A stretch of 64,000 bases of DNA from Pleurocapsa sp. PCC 7319 (GTDB taxonomy: Bacteria; Cyanobacteriota; Cyanobacteriia; Cyanobacteriales; Xenococcaceae), in assembly GCF_000332195.1 (NCBI RefSeq), contig NZ_KB235922.1, positions 3,259,322 through 3,323,321 of the forward strand, in the 5' to 3' direction. A model generated the notes under the pieces. That model did no database searches. It worked only from the letters and a program-made list of their open reading frames with translations, and was not told the origin of the DNA. Both the position numbers and the translations under genes were made by a program. Shown in pieces: positions 2,041 to 17,370 of the stretch (position 1 is the first letter of the stretch; each line of letters starts with the position of its first letter).

Positions 2041-3528
2041 ATGAGGCAAACAGTATCAAAGAATTTTAGAGATGAAATAATCAAAATATATCCTAATTGC
2101 TTAAACAAAATTTCTTATTTAAGATTTTTGCAATATAGATTTTTTAGTAACAATTGGGAAGACAAAGAAAATTGTTTACTGAAAGTGCCACAGTTTGCTT
2201 TGGCATACTGTGAAAGTAAAACTAGAGCCTTGGCAGCTAATAATTACAAAGGATATTTATTTTTACAGAAGTTCAGTAAGGAAATACAACACATCACTTG
2301 GTCGGATTGGAGTTTTGCAGAAGGTAGATGTAGAGTCGTTGAATTTCCTATTGATGCGAGACTAGAATCTCTTATTACTTTAGAGACATATAAAGACTAT
2401 AAACAAGAAGGCGGAAGAATCTATTTAATCAGTGGGAATAAATTTACTACCAGAAATAGAAATCTAGAACTTAAAAAAGCGCAAGAAAAACTTCAAGACG
2501 AGTTAGACGATATCAGGAAGTGTAGAAAAGTCAGAACAGGAGCAGCTAAGATATTTTTCTACATGATGAAGGTAGATATTAAGCACTATAGAAAAATAAT
2601 TGATAACAATATTGATACCGTCGAACTGGCTATCAACAACAGAATTGATTTAGCAGAAACTAAAAAGAAAGTTTATTTAGAAATAATAGATTGTCTGAAG
2701 GAGATAAAAAAACCAATGTTGCATGGAGTAAAAAATAGTTGGAGATTATACGATGAAGGGGTTTCTATAACAGGCTTACCTCGTCAATATCGCAAAATGC
2801 TGTGTAAAGGCTGGACGGAGTTTGATATTAAATCTAGTCAGTTAGCAATAGTCAGCAGTAAATGGAATATACCTAGTATTCATAAATTCCTTAGCCAACG
2901 CAATAGCGTATGGGACTTATTCTTTGATGTCTTTTCTGTATCTGCTGATGAATACGAGTATGCCAAAAGGTTTTTTAAAGAAAGCTTATACAGTGTTGTG
3001 TTTGGCAAGCAAGAGACAAGTATAGCTAAAGAGTACGATAAGTTATTTGGTAAAGGGGCAGGTCAAAAGTTTAGTAATATCTGGTTGGTTAGAGATTTAT
3101 TTGATGCTCGTGAGGCTGAGATTAATAGATTAGCCAATGTTCCTCAAGGTCGCTACTACTCATTAGTTGCGGGGCTAACCTGTAATTCTAGTAATTTCTT
3201 TAAAACAGGAATAAGCAAAGGCGAACTTAAGAAGTTTGAAGAAACTGGAGTCATGCCTTATACCCAACGTAAGCGTATAACATCTGCTATGGCTCAAGAA
3301 GTACAGATGATTGAAATGGCTATACTAACTCCAATCATAGACCTAGCTAAAAAGAACAGTGAGTATTATGTCATTACCCTATGGCAACATGACGGCTTCT
3401 CAGTTAGGTTCTTGGATAATACCAAGAGGAATAAATATACCAAGACAATTGTAAATGCTTTTCAGTCAACTATAGATAGCCTTAAAACCTTTAACATCCC
3501 AACCTACCTTGAATACGAACATCTCTAA
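2041..3528 (+). CDS. Family A polymerase-like protein (possible replication protein of the element)
   Basis: This 495-residue protein shows the three palm/fingers motifs of family A nucleic acid polymerases in the right order. Motif A-like: Asp262 in FDIKSSQLAI. Motif B: Lys309-x3-Lys313-x3-Tyr317-x3-Phe321-Gly322, the same i+4 spacing as Arg754/Lys758/Phe762/Tyr766-Gly in E. coli Pol I. Motif C: His450-Asp451-Gly452. A helix near 415-430 (MAQEVQMIEMAIL) fits the conserved Q-containing helix before motif C. No 3'-5' exonuclease motifs are evident in the N-terminal 250 residues. The family gives the inference of a DNA polymerase or single-subunit RNA polymerase. Small size and context (AT-rich accessory DNA, RHH proteins, no helicase) suggest an element-borne replication enzyme. 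Product type is unproven. Confidence 0.6.
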   Translation: MRQTVSKNFRDEIIKIYPNCLNKISYLRFLQYRFFSNNWEDKENCLLKVPQFALAYCESKTRALAANNYKGYLFLQKFSKEIQHITWSDWSFAEGRCRVVEFPIDARLESLITLETYKDYKQEGGRIYLISGNKFTTRNRNLELKKAQEKLQDELDDIRKCRKVRTGAAKIFFYMMKVDIKHYRKIIDNNIDTVELAINNRIDLAETKKKVYLEIIDCLKEIKKPMLHGVKNSWRLYDEGVSITGLPRQYRKMLCKGWTEFDIKSSQLAIVSSKWNIPSIHKFLSQRNSVWDLFFDVFSVSADEYEYAKRFFKESLYSVVFGKQETSIAKEYDKLFGKGAGQKFSNIWLVRDLFDAREAEINRLANVPQGRYYSLVAGLTCNSSNFFKTGISKGELKKFEETGVMPYTQRKRITSAMAQEVQMIEMAILTPIIDLAKKNSEYYVITLWQHDGFSVRFLDNTKRNKYTKTIVNAFQSTIDSLKTFNIPTYLEYEHL

Positions 3529-4381: not shown

Positions 4382-4594
4382 ATGAAAGCAACAATTACTA
4401 AGAAAGATTTATTAACCATTAAAGAAACAAGAGAAGCCTTGCAAGTTAGCACTACAACCTTGCGAGGATATATTAAAAAAGGTCTACTCCGCAAAGTGCG
4501 CGATAGCCTGGAGAAGACCAAAGTGTATTATCTCAAATCTGAAGTTGATAAGCTTCTAGCTACTAGATTTTATATAGAAGAAGTTAATACTTAG
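4382..4594 (+). CDS. Excisionase-like / MerR-type HTH protein
   Basis: This 70-residue basic protein reads LLTIKETREALQVSTTTLRG followed by YIKKGLLRKVRDS and a C-terminal YYLKSEVDKLLA. That is the winged helix-turn-helix pattern of the excisionase/HTH_17 family: helix, recognition helix, wing with K-G-L/I, then an EVDxLL helix. Such proteins act as excisionases or repressors in mobile elements. It starts 17 bases after the RHH gene and is likely co-transcribed with it. Confidence 0.7.
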   Translation: MKATITKKDLLTIKETREALQVSTTTLRGYIKKGLLRKVRDSLEKTKVYYLKSEVDKLLATRFYIEEVNT

Positions 4595-4686
4595 TTTCTC
4601 TATATTATGAAACTGAATAAACAAATAAGACCACTATTCTTTAATTTGAACGGTAGTTTTTTGTTAATTATATTTTATGAGAATGA

Positions 4687-4715
4687 TTGTCATTTCTAAT
4701 ATTTATTGTTATAAT
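4687..4715 (+). promoter_or_regulatory. Sigma-70 type promoter
   Basis: TTGTCA at 4687-4692 and TATAAT at 4710-4715 are separated by exactly 17 bases. The predicted start of transcription is near 4722, so translation of the following gene should begin at the ATG at 4740 rather than at the upstream in-frame ATG at 4677. Confidence 0.6.
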
Positions 4716-4739
4716 ATATATGTAGTCGAAAGTAGTATA

Positions 4740-4922
4740 ATGAAATTAAATGTAGCTGACACTATTACGTCAGAAATAGCTAGTAGAAAACTCAAATCAA
4801 TAACAAGAAGTATAAGGTTTGAGAGAAAAGATTGGGAAGAATTGAGTAAATTATCTATCGAGCTTGATTTACCAACTAGTCATTTAGTAAGAAAAGCAGT
4901 AAAGCAATTGATTAAAAAATAA
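4740..4922 (+). CDS. Ribbon-helix-helix DNA-binding protein
   Basis: A 60-residue protein starts at ATG 4740, chosen because a near-consensus promoter lies at 4687-4715 inside the longer frame. Residues 20-60 (SITRSIRFERKDWEELSKLS, then a second helix TSHLVRKAVKQLIKK) show the strand-helix-helix order of RHH repressors. The stop codon is directly followed by another ATG, so the next gene may be translationally coupled. Confidence 0.6.
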   Translation: MKLNVADTITSEIASRKLKSITRSIRFERKDWEELSKLSIELDLPTSHLVRKAVKQLIKK

Positions 4923-4994
4923 ATGGCTATATCGCAGACTCTAATGCGATTAACAAATTGTCTCAAGGGAAAAATAATAAACAAAAAAAGAATT

Positions 4995-5450
4995 ATGAAA
5001 AATATTAAATACGGAACAGATTACAAAGTTTTAGATAGTGATATGCAAAATAGCAAAGAAGCTCTAGAAATGTTTGACAAAGCTATTTTCTGGGCAGACT
5101 CTTTGGCAAGAGGAGGTAACTTAGTAGATTGCTCTGATATTGATGATGGAAGTGATGAGGGTGATGTATATTTTGAAAGCTTTTGTAGAATGAAAAATAA
5201 AGAGCTTGAAAAAGAAATTTCTAATAATCACCAATATGCGGAAGAAATGAAAGTAGCTTTGTTTCTAAGGAGGAGATACCCTTATAGAACAAAGAAATTA
5301 TATGAAGGTCATATGAATATGCACGGTGCTATTTTAGCTGAAAAGTTGAAAGAACATAAAGCTAATATTTTACAGGTTTTAGAAAAACCAGTTCAACAAG
5401 AAACATTAGATTCAGAAGAGAATGAATTAGATGATGACCTACCATTTTAA
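4995..5450 (+). CDS. Hypothetical protein with SSB-like C-terminal tip
   Basis: The frame is open from 4923, but the ATG at 4995 (MKNIKYGTDYKVL) gives the more protein-like 151-residue product. The body is charged and helical with no recognised domain and no evident OB fold. The extreme C-terminus is SEENELDDDLPF, matching the acidic-hydrophobic tip of SSB proteins (DDDIPF type) that docks replication and repair enzymes. A bound terminator follows at 5597-5635. The role as a partner-recruiting protein is inference from the tail only. Confidence 0.5.
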   Translation: MKNIKYGTDYKVLDSDMQNSKEALEMFDKAIFWADSLARGGNLVDCSDIDDGSDEGDVYFESFCRMKNKELEKEISNNHQYAEEMKVALFLRRRYPYRTKKLYEGHMNMHGAILAEKLKEHKANILQVLEKPVQQETLDSEENELDDDLPF

Positions 5451-5665: not shown

Positions 5666-5983
5666 ATGACCATATCAAAATCAAGACCACCTCAAGGTAG
5701 CTACGATGAAAACTTTGACCCACGCCCAAAGATTGTAACTGTTGGTGTCTCACTAGTAACAGTTGAAGAACATACGTTTATACAAGACGGACGCGCTGTA
5801 ACTTGTCCTGTAGATGACGACATTACATACATTAGTTTGCCTAGAGAGATTGTTCATTTGCCTTGTGGGGGTGCGTCCTATGACATTATTGCTGACTTAC
5901 TGGAACAAGAAGGCTATTTGCGTAAGCATTGGCGGATTTCTTACGTCTGGGAATGTATACCTGAAGGTCAGCACCCGTTTTAG
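5666..5983 (+). CDS. Hypothetical protein
   Basis: A 105-residue protein starts at ATG 5666. The middle (VGVSLVTVEEHTFIQDGRAV) looks like a beta-rich segment; the C-terminal half contains a helix (SYDIIADLLEQEGYL) and ends WECIPEGQHPF. No family is recognised. It sits after a terminator and 55 bases before the next hypothetical gene on the same strand. Confidence 0.5.
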   Translation: MTISKSRPPQGSYDENFDPRPKIVTVGVSLVTVEEHTFIQDGRAVTCPVDDDITYISLPREIVHLPCGGASYDIIADLLEQEGYLRKHWRISYVWECIPEGQHPF

Positions 5984-6038: not shown

Positions 6039-6596
6039 ATGAAAACTCATCAAGCAGAAGTAATCAACTGTGTAATCGCGAAGACTAAATATGGTCGTAA
6101 GCTTGTTCTCAACTGTAAGTTACTATCTGATAATTCCCAAGTCGCTTGTTGGAGTAATGAGCTTGGCAACAAAGTATATCGCTCAAAGCATAAAGGCGAC
6201 ATTGTTGAGCTTATCGAATCTGACAAGGGTAAATTTAGTGTTCTTGATAAAGAACCACCCCACAATATCAATGGCGCAGGACTAAAATCTGTCAAAGAGA
6301 TAATGCCAAACATACCTAAGTCTAACGGCTATGCCAACGGGACTAACGCTACTCAACAAGCCGTTAATTCTGCTGTAGAAGATTATTTAGATAATGATTT
6401 GGGACTCCCAGAATTATTAACTGACCGACAGAAACAAGACTTGAAAAAGCTTACAGTTGAACGCGCCCGTCTTTTAGTATTCTGTATTGAAACAATGAAG
6501 AATGAAATGGATGCCAAAGGATTTGAGTTCTATGAAAACTCAGTTAGAAGTTTAGGAGTAAGTTTGTTCATTCAAATTACTCGTTATCTACCATAG
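6039..6596 (+). CDS. Hypothetical protein, possible OB-like N-terminus
   Basis: This is a 185-residue protein. Residues 1-68 alternate short strands with basic residues (VINCVIAKTKYGRKLVLNCK, then a KHKGDIVELI turn) and could be an OB-like fold; this is only an impression. Residues 115-180 are helical and charged. It ends 15 bases before the 3' end of hsdR, with which it converges. It is the last small gene of the AT-rich block. Confidence 0.5.
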   Translation: MKTHQAEVINCVIAKTKYGRKLVLNCKLLSDNSQVACWSNELGNKVYRSKHKGDIVELIESDKGKFSVLDKEPPHNINGAGLKSVKEIMPNIPKSNGYANGTNATQQAVNSAVEDYLDNDLGLPELLTDRQKQDLKKLTVERARLLVFCIETMKNEMDAKGFEFYENSVRSLGVSLFIQITRYLP

Positions 6597-6611: not shown

Positions 6612-9600
6612 TTAACCTGCATAAGAATCATAAATATGTTGGTATACTTCATTACACTTCAGTTCGTACATCTCATCAGAATAAGACTGGGGTAATCTAT
6701 CCAATACATCCTTAATTGCCACTTCTACAGAGGCTCTAGTCTGCTGACGCTTACGCCAATCTATAACTAGCTTCTCTCGTTTCAGGGTTGCCAATAATTC
6801 CTGGGCTATTTCTTTAACTTCCTTCTCTTCCTGCTTACTCAAATTGATATTAGGTTTAGTTAACAGGTCAAAGATAGCTAACTCTTCTTCAGTTAACTTT
6901 TGGGCTATAGCTCTTTTCTCTTCTTCGTTTAACTGTTTGGCAAATCCTAGCAACTCAGTAAAGAACCAATCTACATTACGCGAACCAGAGTTATATTCTT
7001 CTATCATCTTCTGGTACTTCTCAAAGTAGTTGAGACGGGTTTTATTAAACTCAACCATTTGCTGTAGCTTGCGGTGGACTGTTCCTTTAAGTTTTTCGGC
7101 TTCTGTATGTTTGTAGCCAGTTTTAAATTTATCTTCTAGCTGTTCTAAATCTAGTTGGCTTAAATCTATTAGCTGTTTGGGACTATCGGGAATAATAAAC
7201 TCACCTGCTACTATTGATTCGTCTAGTAATTCTGCTACCTCTTCCATGACTTCTGAGATATCCGTCTCTGGTAGTTCTTGACGAATCTTTATTGCTAGTT
7301 TCTCTAGTAGCATCTGAGTCTTAGCAAACTCATTAGCAGTTGTATCTGGGAGGATAGCTTTGTACAGTCGGGTAACGTTAGCTGAGAGGGCGAAATAATG
7401 CTTTTTCACCTGTTCACTGACTAATACAGCTTCTACTGCTTCATCCCATACTTTTGCTCGTTCAAAAGCATCCTGGGTAGTATCTAGTTTGTGTAAGTCG
7501 ATTCCTTTTTGCTTACAGAAGTCCTTAGCTTCAGCTATTGCTTCTCTTAGTTCCTGTACTAATACCGTTTTAGGATTAACGGGTGTGTCGCCATCTTCTA
7601 CGCCACCACCTGAAGCAGAACCATAAATAGCTAGAGCATCCTGTAAGTTACGGAATACGCCGATATAGTCAACTATTAGCCCGTTTACTTTTTCCTTGAA
7701 GACTCGGTTAGCCCTAGCTATAGTCTGCATCAGGGTATGATTCTTCATCGGTTTGTCTAGGTACACTGTAGAGCAACTAGGGGCATCAAACCCAGTTATC
7801 CACATAGCACAAACAAATACTATTCTTAGTGGGTTATTAGTATCTTTGAACTTTTCATCTAGTCCTGGTGATTCGTTGACTAATCTATGACGGTGGGGAG
7901 TAATATCTAAACCTTTGTTCTGGAAGTCTTCTACTTCATTCTGGGAAGAAGAAATAATTACCGCCATGTCTGTATCTTCTACATACTGGATTTTCTTCTG
8001 TAGCTGCTTAAGTTCAAACTCACTAACGTTTGCTTGGGCTAGTTGGGCTTTGAGTTCGTTTAGATGTTCCTTCCAGTAGTGCTGTACTTTGTCATACATT
8101 TTGACTGCGGTAAACCTATCAATAGAAATAACCATCGCTTTACCTTGAAATCCTCTAGCTAAGAAATGGGTTACTATATCGGCTGCAATCTTGTCTAAAC
8201 GGTCATTGTTTACTATCAGGTTATATTCCCTGCTACATTGACGTTCTAGTAAGCTTTCTTGGTCTTCATCAAGAGTGGCATTCTCAATGATGTTCTGCAT
8301 ATTCTCGTTAAGCTCATCGTTGGTAAGCTGTAGTTCGGGAATGCGGTTTTCATAGTAGAGGGGTACGGTAGCTTTATCTTCTACTGACTGACGGAAGTTA
8401 TAGATACTGACATAATCGCCAAATACTTCTCTGGTTCTTTCTTCACCAGCCATCAAAGGAGTACCAGTAAAGCCGATAAAAGCAGCATTAGGTAAAGCAT
8501 TCCTCATGTTGAGGGCAAAAGTATCGTATTGGCTGCGGTGTGCTTCATCTACCACGACGATGATGTTAGAACGGTCTGAGAGTTTAGGATAGGTTTCTCC
8601 TTTGTCTACTCTAAATTTCTGAATTAGGGTGAATACGTAGCGATGGTCTTCTTTTAGTAGTTGCTTGAGGTGTACTGCACTATTAGCCCTGACGTTCTTT
8701 TCTGGTTCGGTAACAGCATCAGCATAGGCAAAGTTTTGATAGATTTGTTTGTCTAAGTCATCTCTATCGGTAATAACTAAAAACGTCCAGTTACCCTGTA
8801 ATTTACGGTGTATCTTTTGAGCAAAGAACACCATGCTATAGGATTTACCGCTACCTTGAGTATGCCAGAAGACCCCTAACTTACCTTGGTTGTCTTGTAT
8901 CTGTTTAACGGCATCAATAGCATTATTTACCCCTAAGTACTGGTGATTCTTGCCGACTATCTTTACTAACTTCCCTTTAGCCGTATAGAAGAAGGTGAAG
9001 TTTTCAATGATGTCTAGTAGCAGTTTTTTATTACAAGTTCCTCTAACTACAGTTTCCAGAGAAATAATCCCCTTCTCGCCTTCAGAGTTAATTTTCTTCC
9101 ACTCGCTGAAGTGTTCCCAGGATGAGGTTAGGCTACCAATTCTACTTTTACTACCGTTGGAGAGAATAATAAAAGCGTTGTACCAGAATAGCTGTGGGAT
9201 AGTTTGTTTATAGTCTCGGAGGTTATCATCATAGGCTGTTTTGAGTCTTCTGTGATGGCGTTTGAGTTCGATAAATACTAGGGGTAAACCATTAACAAAA
9301 CCTAGTAAATCTGTACGCCTGAGATACATTTCCCCTGTAATCCAGAATTGAGAGGCGAGGAAGAAATCATTGTTACTGGGGTCATTCCAATCAATTACTT
9401 TAACTGTTTCTATTGCTTCTTCATCGTTGGCATCTTGAAAAGTAACTTTAACCCCATCCTTGAGCAACCTATATATCTCGCGGTTAGCATTTTCTAAACT
9501 TAAGGTGCTGCGGTTTTTAGTTAATTCTTCTATCGCTAAATCAATTGCTGCTGTTGATAAGTCAGGGTTTAATCTAACTAACGCTTTCCTTAACTGGTGT

Positions 9601-9758
9601 ACTAAGACAACCTCTTTTCTACTGCTTCTGCCTAACGTACTTTTATCGTCTTGCCATTCGTGGTAACAATTAGCTGTTTTGTCCCACCCTATTTCTTTGA
9701 ATAGTTCAATTGTACGTAGTTCTAAGGCATCTTCAGAATCAGGATGAGGTTTTTTCAT
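6612..9758 (-). CDS. hsdR: Type I restriction enzyme, R (motor/nuclease) subunit
   Basis: HsdR translocates DNA with ATP and cleaves unmodified DNA as part of the HsdR2M2S complex. This 1048-residue protein has the usual order. The N-terminal PD-(D/E)xK nuclease region (about 120-170) contains GLPLVFIELK. A SF2 motor follows with Walker A GSGKS at 302-306, DEAH at 404-407 and a GFTGTPL motif III. The long helical C-terminal domain binds the methylase. Length is normal for the family. It is the last gene of the operon and starts 3 bases after the DUF5615 gene. Activity depends on HsdM, whose gene carries a stop codon. Confidence 0.95.
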   Translation of the reverse strand: MKKPHPDSEDALELRTIELFKEIGWDKTANCYHEWQDDKSTLGRSSRKEVVLVHQLRKALVRLNPDLSTAAIDLAIEELTKNRSTLSLENANREIYRLLKDGVKVTFQDANDEEAIETVKVIDWNDPSNNDFFLASQFWITGEMYLRRTDLLGFVNGLPLVFIELKRHHRRLKTAYDDNLRDYKQTIPQLFWYNAFIILSNGSKSRIGSLTSSWEHFSEWKKINSEGEKGIISLETVVRGTCNKKLLLDIIENFTFFYTAKGKLVKIVGKNHQYLGVNNAIDAVKQIQDNQGKLGVFWHTQGSGKSYSMVFFAQKIHRKLQGNWTFLVITDRDDLDKQIYQNFAYADAVTEPEKNVRANSAVHLKQLLKEDHRYVFTLIQKFRVDKGETYPKLSDRSNIIVVVDEAHRSQYDTFALNMRNALPNAAFIGFTGTPLMAGEERTREVFGDYVSIYNFRQSVEDKATVPLYYENRIPELQLTNDELNENMQNIIENATLDEDQESLLERQCSREYNLIVNNDRLDKIAADIVTHFLARGFQGKAMVISIDRFTAVKMYDKVQHYWKEHLNELKAQLAQANVSEFELKQLQKKIQYVEDTDMAVIISSSQNEVEDFQNKGLDITPHRHRLVNESPGLDEKFKDTNNPLRIVFVCAMWITGFDAPSCSTVYLDKPMKNHTLMQTIARANRVFKEKVNGLIVDYIGVFRNLQDALAIYGSASGGGVEDGDTPVNPKTVLVQELREAIAEAKDFCKQKGIDLHKLDTTQDAFERAKVWDEAVEAVLVSEQVKKHYFALSANVTRLYKAILPDTTANEFAKTQMLLEKLAIKIRQELPETDISEVMEEVAELLDESIVAGEFIIPDSPKQLIDLSQLDLEQLEDKFKTGYKHTEAEKLKGTVHRKLQQMVEFNKTRLNYFEKYQKMIEEYNSGSRNVDWFFTELLGFAKQLNEEEKRAIAQKLTEEELAIFDLLTKPNINLSKQEEKEVKEIAQELLATLKREKLVIDWRKRQQTRASVEVAIKDVLDRLPQSYSDEMYELKCNEVYQHIYDSYAG

Positions 9759-9761
9759 CGG

Positions 9762-10136
9762 TTAAGAATTTCGTTTGATAGGTAGTATCCTGGCTTTGGC
9801 TTGAGCTTCATTCACAGTAACTAAAGCACCCGCTTCTAGTTCAGACTGAAACTGTAGTAGCGCAGCTAATACTATCTTGCCCAATTTATCGGGGAAAACA
9901 TCTTGAGTCCTTACCTGAATTACGCTTGGTGTATCAGCTTCCGAGATTGCCAACAGCGTACCAAAGTCTAAATCATGGGTAAACACCGTGTAACCGTTAC
10001 TCACAGCCCAAGCCATGATAGTTGAGTCTTTAGCTTTTATATCACCTACAGAAGACCAGTGGACGGCTTCATAACCAGCAGCCTCAAATACAGATACCCA
10101 AGTAGGAGGTATGTTCATGTCGATAACAATTTTCAC
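9762..10136 (-). CDS. DUF5615 PIN-like protein, putative toxin
   Basis: This 124-residue protein has the signature of the DUF5615 (Mut7-C/PIN-like) family: an N-terminal KIVIDMNIPPTW with an early Asp, then AVHW and a DSTIMAWA helix, then VFTHDLDFG. Such proteins are predicted RNases with PIN-type acidic residues and are paired with DUF433 antitoxins. Its ATG overlaps the stop of the DUF433 gene by 4 bases (ATGA), indicating coupled translation. The pair lies between hsdS and hsdR. Confidence 0.85.
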   Translation of the reverse strand: MKIVIDMNIPPTWVSVFEAAGYEAVHWSSVGDIKAKDSTIMAWAVSNGYTVFTHDLDFGTLLAISEADTPSVIQVRTQDVFPDKLGKIVLAALLQFQSELEAGALVTVNEAQAKARILPIKRNS

Positions 10137-10360
10137 GGCATAGCGAGGGGTACTTCAATTTCTTCTGTACGCCATGCAGCATACGCTAAAGCCTGATAAA
10201 TGTCATCTTTTTCCAAGTAGGGATAGGCTTTGAGGATTTCCTCTGGAGTATGACCTGAAGCCATTAAACCTACTATTGTTCCTACAGTAACCCGCATCCC
10301 TCTGATACAAGGCTTACCACCCATTACTTCGGGATTGAAGGTAATTCTATCTAAGTTCAT
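10133..10360 (-). CDS. DUF433 protein, putative antitoxin
   Basis: This 75-residue protein is a textbook DUF433 sequence. It runs ITFNPEVMGGKPCIRGMRVT, a VGTIVGLMASGHTPEEIL helix, YPYLEKDDIYQALAYAA, then a short tail. The family forms a winged HTH-like fold and is the usual partner of DUF5615 PIN-like toxins. The start overlaps the hsdS stop by 4 bases, and the stop overlaps the DUF5615 start by 4 bases. The antitoxin is therefore translated in step with the restriction operon. Confidence 0.88.
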   Translation of the reverse strand: MNLDRITFNPEVMGGKPCIRGMRVTVGTIVGLMASGHTPEEILKAYPYLEKDDIYQALAYAAWRTEEIEVPLAMP

Positions 10361-11646
10361 GCTGCTAATTCTCCTGTGTCTATATTTAGGTTTTCTACAT
10401 CTATCTGCCCTGAAATGAGTTTGGGTAATAGTAAGTCACGAGTTTTATGGAGGTTAATGTTTTTCTCTGAAAGAACATATATTTGTCTGAATAGTGGAGA
10501 AACAATTTCAGAAAACTTTTGAATAGTATTACTGTCAGGATGAGCTATTAAAAAAGTTTCAAAGCAACCTACTTGTACTCTTTGTCTACCGCTAGAGCCA
10601 GTCATGCTCTTAATTGCATTTTCTCTAAAGTCATCTGAACGTGCCAAAAGATAAACATATTCAGAACAAAGAGTTTTAGACCTAAGAACAATAAACTCAG
10701 TCGAACCACAAGCTACAGAATCATTAGAAGGTAAAAATTGAACATAGCCTGTTTTGCCATTTTCAAGACTAGGAGTAATTCTTGCTAAAAGAGTATCGTG
10801 ATTTTTGAACTTTGCACCACTGTTACTAGTACGAGATTCAATATCATTTATTAGCATTGAATCAGTAGATAGACTCCCCATAGGAACAAAAGGTTTTTGT
10901 CCTTGTTTGGGAACTTGAGTTTTGGGATTAACTAAAACTGCGTCCGTTACTTTTGTGACTTCCCAACCTTCAGGAATTAAACCTAATTCAGACTCAACCA
11001 TATTTACCTGTTCGTGACCAGGGAAACGGAATTTAACAAACCACTCTTGATAGATAGTTTGTGCCATTGATTCTAATATTTTGATGCGTCTGGTATTATT
11101 TTCGATGAGGTCATCATAGGCTGAAAGTATAGAAGCAATTTTGTTTTGTATGGGTAGAGGTGGTAGATACAAAGGCTCGTTTTCCGAGAAAACAGTATAT
11201 TGAAATCTCGCTACTCCAGTATGCTGAGTATGATATTGCAACAAATAACCAGCGTGATAAAGATACTGTAGTTGCCAAAATAAGTAATTGCTGTTTGCCC
11301 GTTTAGGATTGATTCTTATAAATCTACTAAAACTAGCACAAATTAATGGTAATTCTGACTTGTAAACTATTGAAGGATTGATAAATAGGGAACGTCCTGT
11401 AGGTCTATTTTTTGAACCACCAGCCGTTTCTAACAAAATATCATTGGGTTTGAGAATTTTTCTATCTGCAATACGCTTTGGAATATAGCGAATGGGTAAA
11501 TCCTCAATTTCTCCTTTTCTGACTTTTTCAAAATCTGTTCCTCTAATGACAGCCATTTTCACTGATTTATCAAACTGTTCTCCTTTACCCCATTCTCCAT
11601 CTTTAGATATATCAATAAGAGATTTTAGAATTACTGAGTTTATCAT
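10357..11646 (-). CDS. hsdS: Type I restriction-modification specificity subunit
   Basis: HsdS gives the complex its bipartite recognition sequence. This 429-residue protein has two target recognition domains (about 1-165 and 225-385). Each is followed by a conserved helical spacer: residues 166-215 with LPPLPIQNKIASILSAYDDL, and the end with HKTRDLLLPKLISGQIDV. Length is normal. It starts 3 bases after the end of the hsdM frame and overlaps the DUF433 start. The specificity cannot be read from sequence. Confidence 0.93.
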   Translation of the reverse strand: MINSVILKSLIDISKDGEWGKGEQFDKSVKMAVIRGTDFEKVRKGEIEDLPIRYIPKRIADRKILKPNDILLETAGGSKNRPTGRSLFINPSIVYKSELPLICASFSRFIRINPKRANSNYLFWQLQYLYHAGYLLQYHTQHTGVARFQYTVFSENEPLYLPPLPIQNKIASILSAYDDLIENNTRRIKILESMAQTIYQEWFVKFRFPGHEQVNMVESELGLIPEGWEVTKVTDAVLVNPKTQVPKQGQKPFVPMGSLSTDSMLINDIESRTSNSGAKFKNHDTLLARITPSLENGKTGYVQFLPSNDSVACGSTEFIVLRSKTLCSEYVYLLARSDDFRENAIKSMTGSSGRQRVQVGCFETFLIAHPDSNTIQKFSEIVSPLFRQIYVLSEKNINLHKTRDLLLPKLISGQIDVENLNIDTGELAA

Positions 11647-12018: not shown

Positions 12019-13206
12019 CTACCGATAAATATGTCTGGCATCAATAAATAAAACTTTGTTCTTCCGTGTGGTGTCGGTTTTACCTTTATCTAAAAACCAA
12101 AGAGTACAAGGTACACCCACTGTATAGAAAAAATTAGATTTTACAGCTATCATTACATCGACTACACTAGCTTCGATGAGCTTTTGTCTGATTTCTAACT
12201 CTGAACTTCTAGCATCGCTAGCAGAGTTAGCCATGACAAATCCTGCCCTACCTTTATCACTTAAAGCACTGTAGAAGAAATGAATCCAGAGATAATTAGC
12301 ACTATCAGCTTTAGGCATTCCAAAGTCTTGTACCCGTAAATCCCCCTTCATCTTTTCCTTATCCACCTTATCCACATTGAAGGGTGGATTAGCCATTACG
12401 AAGTCAAACTTACTAATACTCTTGTGGATATCCTCGTAATAAGTATTGCCTTCTTTAATATCTCCAGATAAACCATGTACAGCTAGGTTCATCTTGCATA
12501 GCCGTACTGTCTCAGTTACCCTTTCCTGTCCGTAGATACTTATCTCAGCATTAGGGTTTTTCTGATGCTTACTGACAAAGGAAGCACTTTGTACGAACAT
12601 ACCACCCGAACCACAGGCAGGGTCATAAATACGTCCGTGATAGGGTTCTAGAATTTCGACAATTAATTTAACGATAGAAGTAGGGGTGAAAAATTCCCCT
12701 CCCTTTTGTCCTTCACTCATGGCAAACTTACCGAGGAAGTATTCGTATATCTTCCCGAAAGCATCACCTTCTAAATCTGTATCGATATCTATCTTGTTAA
12801 AGCTTTTGAGTAGTTCGACTAACAAGCTATTTTCAAAGCGGTTATAAGTCTGAGGCAAAATGTTACTCAATTCCTCATTCTCAGCCTCAATAGCTTTCAT
12901 AGCTTCATTTATCGCCTTCCCTGTATCCTCGCTCTCTGGGAGATTAACTAGATAGGAAAAACGAGCTATATCGGGTAAATACATTACCCCTTTGGCTTGA
13001 TAGTCTGCTTTAGATACACCACGTCTTCTACTGCCTTTGTTCTTTAACTCCTGTTCTGCTTTGGTAAACCTGTAATCAGCGTAGCGCAGGAAGATTAACC
13101 CCAGTACAGGTACAGAATACTCTGAAGCTTTGAGCTTAGAGTTTGCCCTCAACTCATCGGCAGCATCCCATAAACGTTTCTCTAAATCAGTGGTGTTGGC
13201 TGGCAT
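12019..13206 (-). CDS. hsdM: Type I DNA methyltransferase subunit, truncated by an amber stop
   Basis: HsdM transfers methyl groups from SAM to the N6 of adenine at the HsdS target. The 395-residue frame contains the N-terminal HsdM helical domain (1-130) and the methylase fold with [10 protein letters not shown] (195-204) and catalytic NPPF (273-276). It stops right after FIDARHIYR. The missing 122 residues follow in the same frame, so this is a nonsense mutation, readthrough or a sequencing error rather than a frameshift. The C-terminal region normally contacts HsdS, so the truncated protein would probably be defective. It is the first gene of the operon. Confidence 0.9.
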
Positions 13207-13350
13207 AAGGTGTTTACTACAATCATCAAGCTTTTTGATTGTATGTCCTATTTATGGCGATGACACCAGATATTTCAACGAACTTTAGAAACGCTAATGA
13301 GAAATGGGCATTCTAATGATGAAGCAACTACATATAAAATATCCCTATTC

Positions 13351-15147
13351 ATGTCCATCCAAAAATATTCAGTTAACCAACATCCCGTTCAAACTTTACT
13401 TTCTTGGATTAGTTCAGGTGAAATTGCTATACCTGAAATTCAGCGACCTTTTGTATGGAATGCTAGTAAAGTACGTGACCTAATTGACTCTTTATATCAA
13501 GGTTATCCAGTAGGTTATCTGATTGCATGGCGTAACCCTACAGTTAAGTTAAAAGATGGAACTTCATCTAGTGGGAAAAGAATACTTATAGATGGACAAC
13601 AGCGTGTTACTGCTTTAATGGCTGCCGTTTTAGGAAGATACGTAATCAACAAAGACTATAGAAAAGTACGTATAACAATTGCTTTCCATCCTCAAGAAAG
13701 GAAGTTTGAAGTTTCTAATACTGCAATAAGTAAAGATAAATCTTGGATTGTAGATATAGCCCAAGTGTTTACTGCTGACTTCAAAACTATCAAATTTGTC
13801 AACGATTATTGTCAAAAGAACGAGGATGCAGACCAAGACGACATTTTTGAAAGCATTGATTTATTAAAAGGGATAGCTAATAATCATATCGGTTTAATCG
13901 AACTAAATTCTGATTTAGATATTGAAACCATTACAGAAATTTTCATCCGTATCAACTCACAAGGAGCAAGATTAAGCCAAGCAGATTTTGCTATGTCCAA
14001 GATTGCTGCCAATGAAACTTATGGCGGTAATTTGCTGAGAAAATGTATTGATTACTTTTGTCATCTTGCAGTTGCACCAGAGTTTTATCAACAACTAGCA
14101 GAGATAGACTTAGACTTTTCGGCTACAGAATACTTTCAGAAAATGTCATGGTTAAAATCCGTGAATGATGATTTGTATGCTCCCTCTTATACTGATATGT
14201 TGCGTGTAGCTTTTACTTCAGAGTTCAAGCGAGGAAGGTTAGAAGATTTGGTAGCTTTACTTTCAGGTAGAAATTTTGAAACTAGAAGTTATGAAGAACA
14301 AATAGCAGAATCATCTTTCAAGATGCTTGAGAAAGGTATTTTCAATTTCATGAATGAAACCAACTTTAAGCGTTTTATGATGATTGTTCGCTCATCTGGT
14401 TTTATAAACTCGTCAATGATTCGCTCTCAAAACGCGATTAATTTTTCTTACATCGTTTATCTAGTCCTTAAAGAACAGAAAATCGATTCAAACAAAATAG
14501 AGTCTTATGTCCGCAAATGGTTTGTAATGTCTATACTGACTGGAAGATATTCTGGCTCTCCAGAATCTACATTTGATACAGACATCAAAAGAATTAATCA
14601 GTTTGGATTTCCAGAATACTTATCAAAAATAGAATCTGCTGATTTGTCAGAGGCATTTTGGAACTCGTCATTACCACAACAAATGAATACCTCTGTAGCT
14701 AGCAGTCCTTATTTTAAAGTGTTCCTTGCATCTCAAGTCAAAGCAAATAATAAAGGATTCTTATCAAAAGATATTACTGTAAATGACCTTCTACTTCACA
14801 GAGGAGACATACATCATATCTTCCCTAAAAAGTATCTTCAAAAACACGGCTTAACTCGCGGTAGATATAACCAGATTGCTAATTATGTAATGATGCAGAG
14901 TGAAATCAATATCTCCATTAGAGATAATCCTCCATCTGAATATTTTTCACTTCTTCTAAAACAAGCAAATGATGGCGAAGCTAAATTTGGAGGAATAAAT
15001 AAGATAGAACAAATGTACGATAATTTTGCCATGCACTGTCTTCCTGATGCTATGGAAACTAAAACCATTGATGATTATGATGATTTTCTAGCCGAACGCC
15101 GAAGATTGATGGCGAACAAGATTAAAAATTATTACTTCGAGCTATAG
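13351..15147 (+). CDS. DUF262 / HNH (DUF1524-like) protein, GmrSD-family restriction factor
   Basis: I place the start at ATG 13351 ([10 protein letters not shown]), giving 598 residues; an upstream ATG at 13297 adds 18. The N-terminal DUF262 domain shows [20 protein letters not shown] and the nucleotide-binding/hydrolysis motif DGQQR. The C-terminal domain has HHIFPKKYL and later Asn residues, as in His-Me finger (DUF1524-like) nucleases. GmrSD proteins of this layout restrict modified phage DNA, and DUF262 proteins often accompany type I systems. The gene is divergent from hsdM across about 140 bases. Substrate is unknown. Confidence 0.82.
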
Positions 15148-17229: not shown

Positions 17230-17296
17230 CTATACTGGAAATTAGTTGTAAATTCCGAATAAGACCAATTGCTTCAAACTACTGGTATAACTTATA

Positions 17297-17370
17297 CGGG
17301 ACTGACGGGACTCGAACCCGCGACCTCCTGCGTGACAGGCAGGCATTCTAACCAGCTGAACTACAGTCCC
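17297..17370 (-). tRNA. tRNA-Asp (anticodon GTC)
   Basis: The minus strand folds as a standard cloverleaf. It has a 7-bp acceptor stem GGGACTG/CAGTCCC, a D-arm with AGCTGGTTAGA, an anticodon stem CCTGC/GCAGG with loop CTGTCAC (anticodon GTC), and a T-arm with GGGTTCGAGTCCC. The discriminator base is G, as expected for tRNA-Asp. CCA is not encoded. Its 3' end faces the accessory block on the left. Confidence 0.97.

Follow-up and report, generated by a model that had tools for sequence, protein, structure and literature searches.

The open reading frame at positions 2041-3528 (+ strand, 495 codons) of the window, the 64,000-nucleotide stretch of Pleurocapsa sp. PCC 7319 DNA analysed here, probably encodes a family A DNA polymerase of the TV-Pol branch that belongs to the replication module of an integrative element of about 25.4 kb at a tRNA-Asp gene, a reading to which we assign a probability of roughly 0.7. 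Homology, fold, conserved active-site residues, purifying selection, the repeat and integrase at the element ends and the gene order form its basis.

Polymerase domain and active-site motifs

An earlier note on this DNA described an open reading frame of fewer than 500 residues with three family A motifs, a motif B spaced as in Pol I and no visible exonuclease, and each of these points has held. The protein has 495 residues, motif A reads F-D262-I-K-S-S-Q267, motif B K309-x3-K313-x3-Y317-x3-F321-G322 and motif C H450-D451-G452, all at the places given before, and searches of Pfam, PHROG and NCBIfam with a limit of E 1 found no exonuclease or nuclease domain. R235, R251, D262, Q267, K309, K313, Y317, G322, Q422, E425, H450, D451 and G452 are invariant in all seven aligned sequences (the window protein and six homologues). 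Since these include a Deinococcus plasmid protein with 25% identity, the motif residues are not due to chance. The superfamily A signature (motif A Asp, motif B Lys and motif C His-Asp) is present and equally invariant, and position 321 is Phe in the window protein and Tyr in three of the seven members. The gene is under purifying selection: comparison with an 80%-identical Hyellaceae homologue gives a dN/dS of 0.105-0.127, with 77/40/180 differences by codon position over 495 codons.

Because Pfam, PHROG and NCBIfam contain no family matching the window protein up to E 1, annotation misses it, and a PDB sequence search with the single protein gave nothing useful. When four members were searched singly in Pfam up to E 10, one reached DUF2716 at 0.017. 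Seven members searched singly in PHROG gave 11 families with one member each, the best being phrog_10892 (unknown function) at 5.4e-4, with a 'DNA polymerase' family at E 0.1; the member at L014 has a sub-threshold Rh5 match (0.0026).

Structure prediction and a structural search, proposed in the earlier note as a check, gave the fold of family A polymerases and not one without a palm. The 50 matches listed in each of two structure listings are all family A DNA polymerases, and the model indicates that the window protein has a family A polymerase domain, with a predicted right-hand fold of family A topology. In the model, D262 ends strand 259-262 and D451 lies between strands 443-448 and 452-457, and the hairpin of residues 226-240, which holds R235, has a pLDDT below 50. 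The window-family profile matches Pol I at E 1.2e-4 (hhalign, local mode; reversed control 0.34), and a 7-row version of it finds Pol I (7r0k) in the PDB, in register, at E 0.079. The PDB matches of a 4-row profile were rejected as chance.

Position beside the TV-Pols

TV-Pols are described in the 2008 paper as family A proteins of mobile elements and viruses, including cyanophage Ma-LMM01, and a primase-polymerase role has been proposed for them there (Iyer, Abhiman and Aravind 2008, PMC2579912). We took gene 30 of Ma-LMM01 (506 aa, adjoining a transposase gene) as its TV-Pol from position and motifs, the available text of PMC2579912 giving no gene number. The TV-Pol-type set, gathered with gene 30 and the relatives it brought in, comprises six proteins, namely gene 30, those of genomes G058 and G042, one of a Calothrix plasmid and two of Polaromonas plasmids. 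The joint alignment holds seven TV-Pol-type proteins, including that of genome G314; the Calothrix sequence ends at the end of its record and has no data for Q-x2-E and motif C. A resolvase or recombinase gene lies near the TV-Pol-type gene in the Calothrix record and in one Polaromonas record. On Polaromonas plasmid pW9NP1, the TV-Pol-type gene (L056:37-1653) immediately precedes a gene whose annotation is replication protein RepA.

The window-family profile matches the six TV-Pol-type proteins at E 1.5e-17 over 437 columns (hhalign; reversed control 0.087) and other TV subsets at E 8.7e-16 to 1.1e-14, while it matches gene 30 alone at E 0.015 and T7-type DNA polymerases at E 0.012 (reversed control 0.79). 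For scale, Pol I and the T7-type DNA polymerases match at E 1.1e-24, and the TV set matches Pol I weakly (E 0.012-0.016). In the joint alignment, Gln or His occupies the Pol I Glu710 position in 7/7 members of the window family and 7/7 of the TV set, and Gln-x2-Glu stands where Pol I has Gln-Gly-Ser-Ser in 7/7 and in 6/6 with data. Motif C is HDG in 7/7 and in 5/6 with data, the exception being the G314 protein (L059:8131-9687), in which the usual His is replaced to give Met-Asp-Gly. Since the variants of motifs A and C recur in TV-Pol-type proteins in the joint alignment, they belong to a known branch. The earlier note had read them as marks of an undescribed system, but they recur in Ma-LMM01, two Polaromonas plasmids and cyanobacterial chromosomes, and the profile match of E 1.5e-17 also speaks against that view.

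A tree of 17 sequences rooted on three Pol I sequences places the window family and the TV set as two sister clades (supports 0.977 and 0.982). Of the features by which TV-Pols are recognized, the Arg before motif A and the two palm Asp residues are present in the window protein (R235, D262 and D451), and the tyrosine integrase gene at the element end fits their usual neighbourhood of a D5 helicase, resolvase, integrase or transposase gene. Where RxxxK is expected in the fingers, the window protein has KxxxK (K309 and K313), and the first basic residue is unaligned in the seven TV-Pol-type proteins. Judged by these sequence comparisons, the window protein forms its own clade beside the sampled TV-Pols and is no new enzyme class. 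Of the suggestion that it may be a small element replicase of a new class, the family A polymerase-like protein in a mobile block is retained and the new class is not, the protein being of a TV-Pol sister clade. A search of the published literature, with most subscription papers outside its reach, found no description of the clade. In passages of a 2026 survey, bacterial family A is divided into PolA1, PolA2, PolA3 and a PolA1-like group, and those passages mention neither TV-Pols nor the window clade (PMC12926913).

The integrative element and its relatives

A 49-bp repeat with one mismatch occurs at 17294-17342 of the window, where it includes the 3' part of the tRNA-Asp gene, and at 3251274-3251322 of G000:C7, which is 25.3 kb leftward and outside the window; the left copy adjoins a tyrosine integrase gene. 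From these sequences, the polymerase gene is placed in a putative integrative element of about 25.4 kb between copies of the tRNA-Asp 3' end. The features of its right part are as follows.

84-743, +: ORF without assigned function; counterparts in the same order in a Hyellaceae MAG (L002) and in G446 (L027), by inspection of translations
731-1117, +: ORF without assigned function; counterpart in L002, by inspection
1142-1363, +: small RHH-like ORF upstream of the polymerase; G446 counterpart L027 5096-5314, by inspection; no credible Pfam match for 1202-1360
1353-1556, +: 67-aa ORF; G446 counterpart L027 4900-5103, by inspection
2041-3528, +: TV-Pol-type family A polymerase; N-terminal part about 1-140, polymerase domain about 141-495
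4382-4594, +: HTH_17/MerR-type excisionase-like protein; Pfam HTH_17 E 1.9e-8, phrog_66 'excisionase and transcriptional regulator' 2.6e-8
4677-4922, +: ribbon-helix-helix protein; 4737-4919 matches RHH_3 at E 4.4e-4, 20.6 bits against a curated cut-off of 21.6
4923-5450, +: 175-aa ORF without assigned function
5666-5983, +: 105-aa ORF; by inspection, L002, L003, G446 and G314 have counterparts close to their polymerase
6039-6596, +: 185-aa ORF; first 75 or so residues OB-fold-like by eye; candidate single-strand binding partner
6612-9758, -: cargo, HsdR of type I restriction
9762-10136, -: cargo, DUF5615 PIN-like protein
10357-11646, -: cargo, HsdS
12019-13206, -: cargo, HsdM
13297-15147, +: cargo, GmrSD_N-type protein
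17294-17342, no strand: right attachment repeat, 49 bp, one mismatch to its left partner
17297-17370, -: tRNA-Asp (GTC), integration site; 3' part within the repeat

The AT-rich setting with RHH and excisionase-like genes, also described earlier, is confirmed. The 185-aa ORF is not adjacent to the polymerase gene, and a PDB search with its profile gave no significant match (one chance match, E 0.91). By inspection, a transposase-like gene occupies, at L003:1806-3305, the place after the 105-aa gene where the window has its 185-aa gene. Pfam was run on the larger ORFs of the element, leaving out the 124-aa ORF beside the integrase, the 67-aa ORF and smaller ones; among the ORFs scanned, a D5/COG3378 helicase was not found and only the cargo HsdR has a helicase-type domain.

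The repeat and the integrase end recur in genome G446 (80.5% over 1.76 kb) on another contig; a further G446 contig shows, by inspection, a matching order of genes, and its polymerase has about 21% identity. Of 12 further genomes searched in the genus, 10 show a full-length match (74-77 bp) to the tRNA-Asp gene. None of five genomes compared has an empty site with shared flanks, the left flank having in common the repeat only, save in G446 (about 27 bp more); in G366, one of the five, this flank also shows distant transposase-like similarity.

Searched as a single sequence (E limit 0.01), the window protein had no match among 50,697 phage records, and 72,556 plasmid records yielded a single one, encoded on a plasmid of Deinococcus peraridilitoris (22.5% identity). 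In a sample of 292 cyanobacterial genomes, a protein search recovered two, the window's own and G068, and a profile search covering 388 sampled genomes of the order recovered six, of which five are counted real (G000, G471, G475, G446 and G068); G471 and G475 hold contigs of Hyellaceae and Pleurocapsa MAGs carrying homologues. The sixth, in G235 (E 6.5e-4), was rejected as chance because its locus has, on inspection, a different kind of gene in repeated copies. The family gene is also present on two viral contigs, 190.9 and 38.7 kb long. The gene is rare and patchy in these samples, as expected of mobile genes. In G068, it has a tRNA-Met/integrase end on one side and a gene for a major head protein (PHROG E 1.5e-24) on the other, and it adjoins an antirepressor with a KilAC domain; the locus is a prophage. 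In the 190-kb viral contig, the gene (L009:7998-9473) is on the strand opposite most of its neighbours; by inspection, two aminoacyl-tRNA-synthetase-like genes and one for a Pol I-type exonuclease protein are on the contig as well.

Upstream of the window and inside the element lies the gene of a 1124-aa protein (L008:10511-13885; G000:C7:3253510-3256881) with one DNDGD motif. It has homologues of 1230 aa in G446 and 1183 aa in G314, and phages of the Ma-LMM01 group have a further one of 1673-1677 aa (tblastn best 8e-20; profile 2.9e-26); these phages also encode gene 30 homologues. R-x-P stands about 40 residues ahead of DxDGD, an arrangement that resembles the active-site region of double-psi-barrel RNA polymerases, and the motif is the one lead to the possibility that the 1124-aa protein is such an enzyme; a comparison with YonO is not significant (E 0.6, reversed 0.69), and the structure model has a pLDDT of 33.8. 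In the G314 element, the TV-Pol is of the other clade and has the large protein on one side and, beyond two more ORFs, a gene of the 105-aa type (by inspection) on the other; the window-family profile found nothing in G314. This swap of one TV-Pol clade for the other suggests the same job for both. A single-protein search, which missed G446, found the large protein in 2 of 195 genomes, its own included, and the protein is linked to a polymerase of either clade in three elements only. A two-polymerase replicon, in which the TV-Pol would copy DNA and the 1124-aa protein, as a single-chain double-psi beta-barrel RNA polymerase, would prime or transcribe in place of a helicase-primase, in a module common to Ma-LMM01 and its relatives, is a tentative idea and an unlikely one.

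Several observations stand against the main reading. The usual D5/COG3378 partner of TV-Pols and CCPol was not found among the element ORFs scanned, the contexts of the homologues vary (the G068 prophage, the 190-kb viral contig and the Deinococcus plasmid), and the Ma-LMM01 protein was chosen as a TV-Pol by position and motifs, its single-protein match being just E 0.015. The Pol I-type exonuclease protein that the 190-kb viral contig encodes, by inspection, in addition to the homologue would fit a repair or bypass polymerase, or an enzyme filling gaps after integration or transfer, rather than an element replicase. However, the conserved place of the gene in the core of related elements and its exchange in the G314 element for a TV-Pol of another clade make such a role distinctly unlikely.

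Nucleotide selection and proposed role

In the alignment to Pol I, Tyr317, Gln422, Phe321 and Gln267 of the window protein fall at the F762, Q849, Y766 and Glu710 positions, respectively. T7 DNA polymerase also has Tyr at the F762 position; in RNA polymerases this residue is Met, and the one at the Q849 position is His. Glu710 is the steric gate, and Glu710 and Tyr766 bear on sugar selection. The residues of the window protein favour DNA synthesis, with uncertain sugar discrimination because the Glu710 position is Gln and the Tyr766 position is Phe.

A single-subunit RNA polymerase, which the earlier note had left as an option and which would act like T7 RNA polymerase in transcribing the element's genes, is consistent with the small size, the failure to find an exonuclease, Gln in place of the Glu710 steric gate and a motif B in register with that of T7 RNA polymerase. 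The window-family profile gives E 0.14 (reversed 0.17) against T7-type RNA polymerases, although this comparison has low power, Pol I giving just 0.53 against the same enzymes. The Tyr and Gln at the F762 and Q849 positions are nevertheless of the DNA-polymerase type, and RNA polymerases are absent from the 50 matches listed in either structure listing, which is weak evidence. The closest relatives are TV-Pol-type, and CCPol-MP, a relative that has been tested, is described as priming with dNTPs only (PMC7581432), so that we consider transcription of this kind highly unlikely. An anti-phage defence protein with polymerase chemistry, like the RT-associated PolA of DRT systems, is a very remote prospect: restriction cargo adjoins and one of the seven members (L014) matches PADLOC RTasPolA at E 2.9e-7, but that match was rejected as evidence since the model also matches in 59/60 genomes of the relatives search and 10/14 control genomes, as ordinary Pol I would, the other six members have no RTasPolA match, and the Pfam scan of element ORFs found no reverse transcriptase family.

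In the main reading, the product of synthesis (DNA and not RNA), the roles of individual residues, the priming, the excision and copying of the element and the partner are inferred. D262 and D451 would hold two catalytic metal ions, K309 and K313 would bind the incoming triphosphate, Y317 and F321 would contact its sugar and base, and R235 would contact the template. The integrase, aided by the HTH protein, would excise the element, and the polymerase would then copy it. The polymerase would probably start DNA chains itself on a single-stranded template with a small partner protein, as the related CCPol does with MP. By this analogy, copying of the excised element is the most likely task of the window polymerase, and priming a possible one. 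With the clade come cyanobacterial and Deinococcus members whose nucleotide-selection site is different; it occurs in elements carrying a large DxDGD protein that cyanophages also have, and it offers a defined element for testing whether a Pol I-like core primes its own synthesis.

Compared with Pol I, the window protein has the same thumb, palm and fingers, motif A Asp, motif B Lys, Q849-type Gln and motif C His-Asp; it differs in that no 5'-3' or 3'-5' exonuclease was found, in HDG instead of HDE, and in Gln, Lys and Phe instead of Glu710, Arg754 and Tyr766. The divPolA1 and divPolA2 proteins of tailed phages are likewise described as extra divergent family A polymerases beside a regular one (PMC11348598), and one divPolA2 sequence (AUR84708) gives E 0.16 to the window-family profile against 0.14 to Pol I.

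CCPol-MP, according to passages of PMC7581432, makes DNA primers de novo with dNTPs only, needs its catalytic Asp and receives single-strand binding from MP. Such polymerases were predicted by Rice (2023) to pair with OB-fold proteins; the known activity tests are those of CCPol-MP and, as the 2023 paper states, of an SCCmer-like pair (PMC10061031). These CCPol-MP or PolA-SSB primases of SCC-like elements share with the window protein a family A core without exonuclease function and a place on integrative elements (PMC7581432, PMC10061031). Many PolA-SSB elements are described as carrying restriction-modification genes, as the window element does, and the latter has a possible OB-fold-like small protein. 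In contrast, CCPol has Glu and Phe at the E710 and F762 positions, where the window family has Gln and Tyr (PMC7581432, PMC10061031), and the CCPol operon as described has MP and a helicase, with a large serine recombinase, whereas the window element has a tyrosine integrase. Because the helicase of those modules was not found in the window element, its module is not CCPol-MP itself.

The TV-Pol family is the closest in kind: the size of 400-600 aa, the polymerase core without a nuclease, the conserved Arg before motif A, the two palm Asp residues and the mobile-element setting with an integrase, resolvase or transposase are common to both (PMC2579912). The window family differs in its motif B, K-x3-K-x3-Y-x3-[FY]-G, of which the seven TV-Pol-type proteins have no aligned first Lys, and in its element, where a large DxDGD protein lies near by instead of a D5 helicase, which was not found there. 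What is new here is the clade and its setting, within an already described kind of polymerase.
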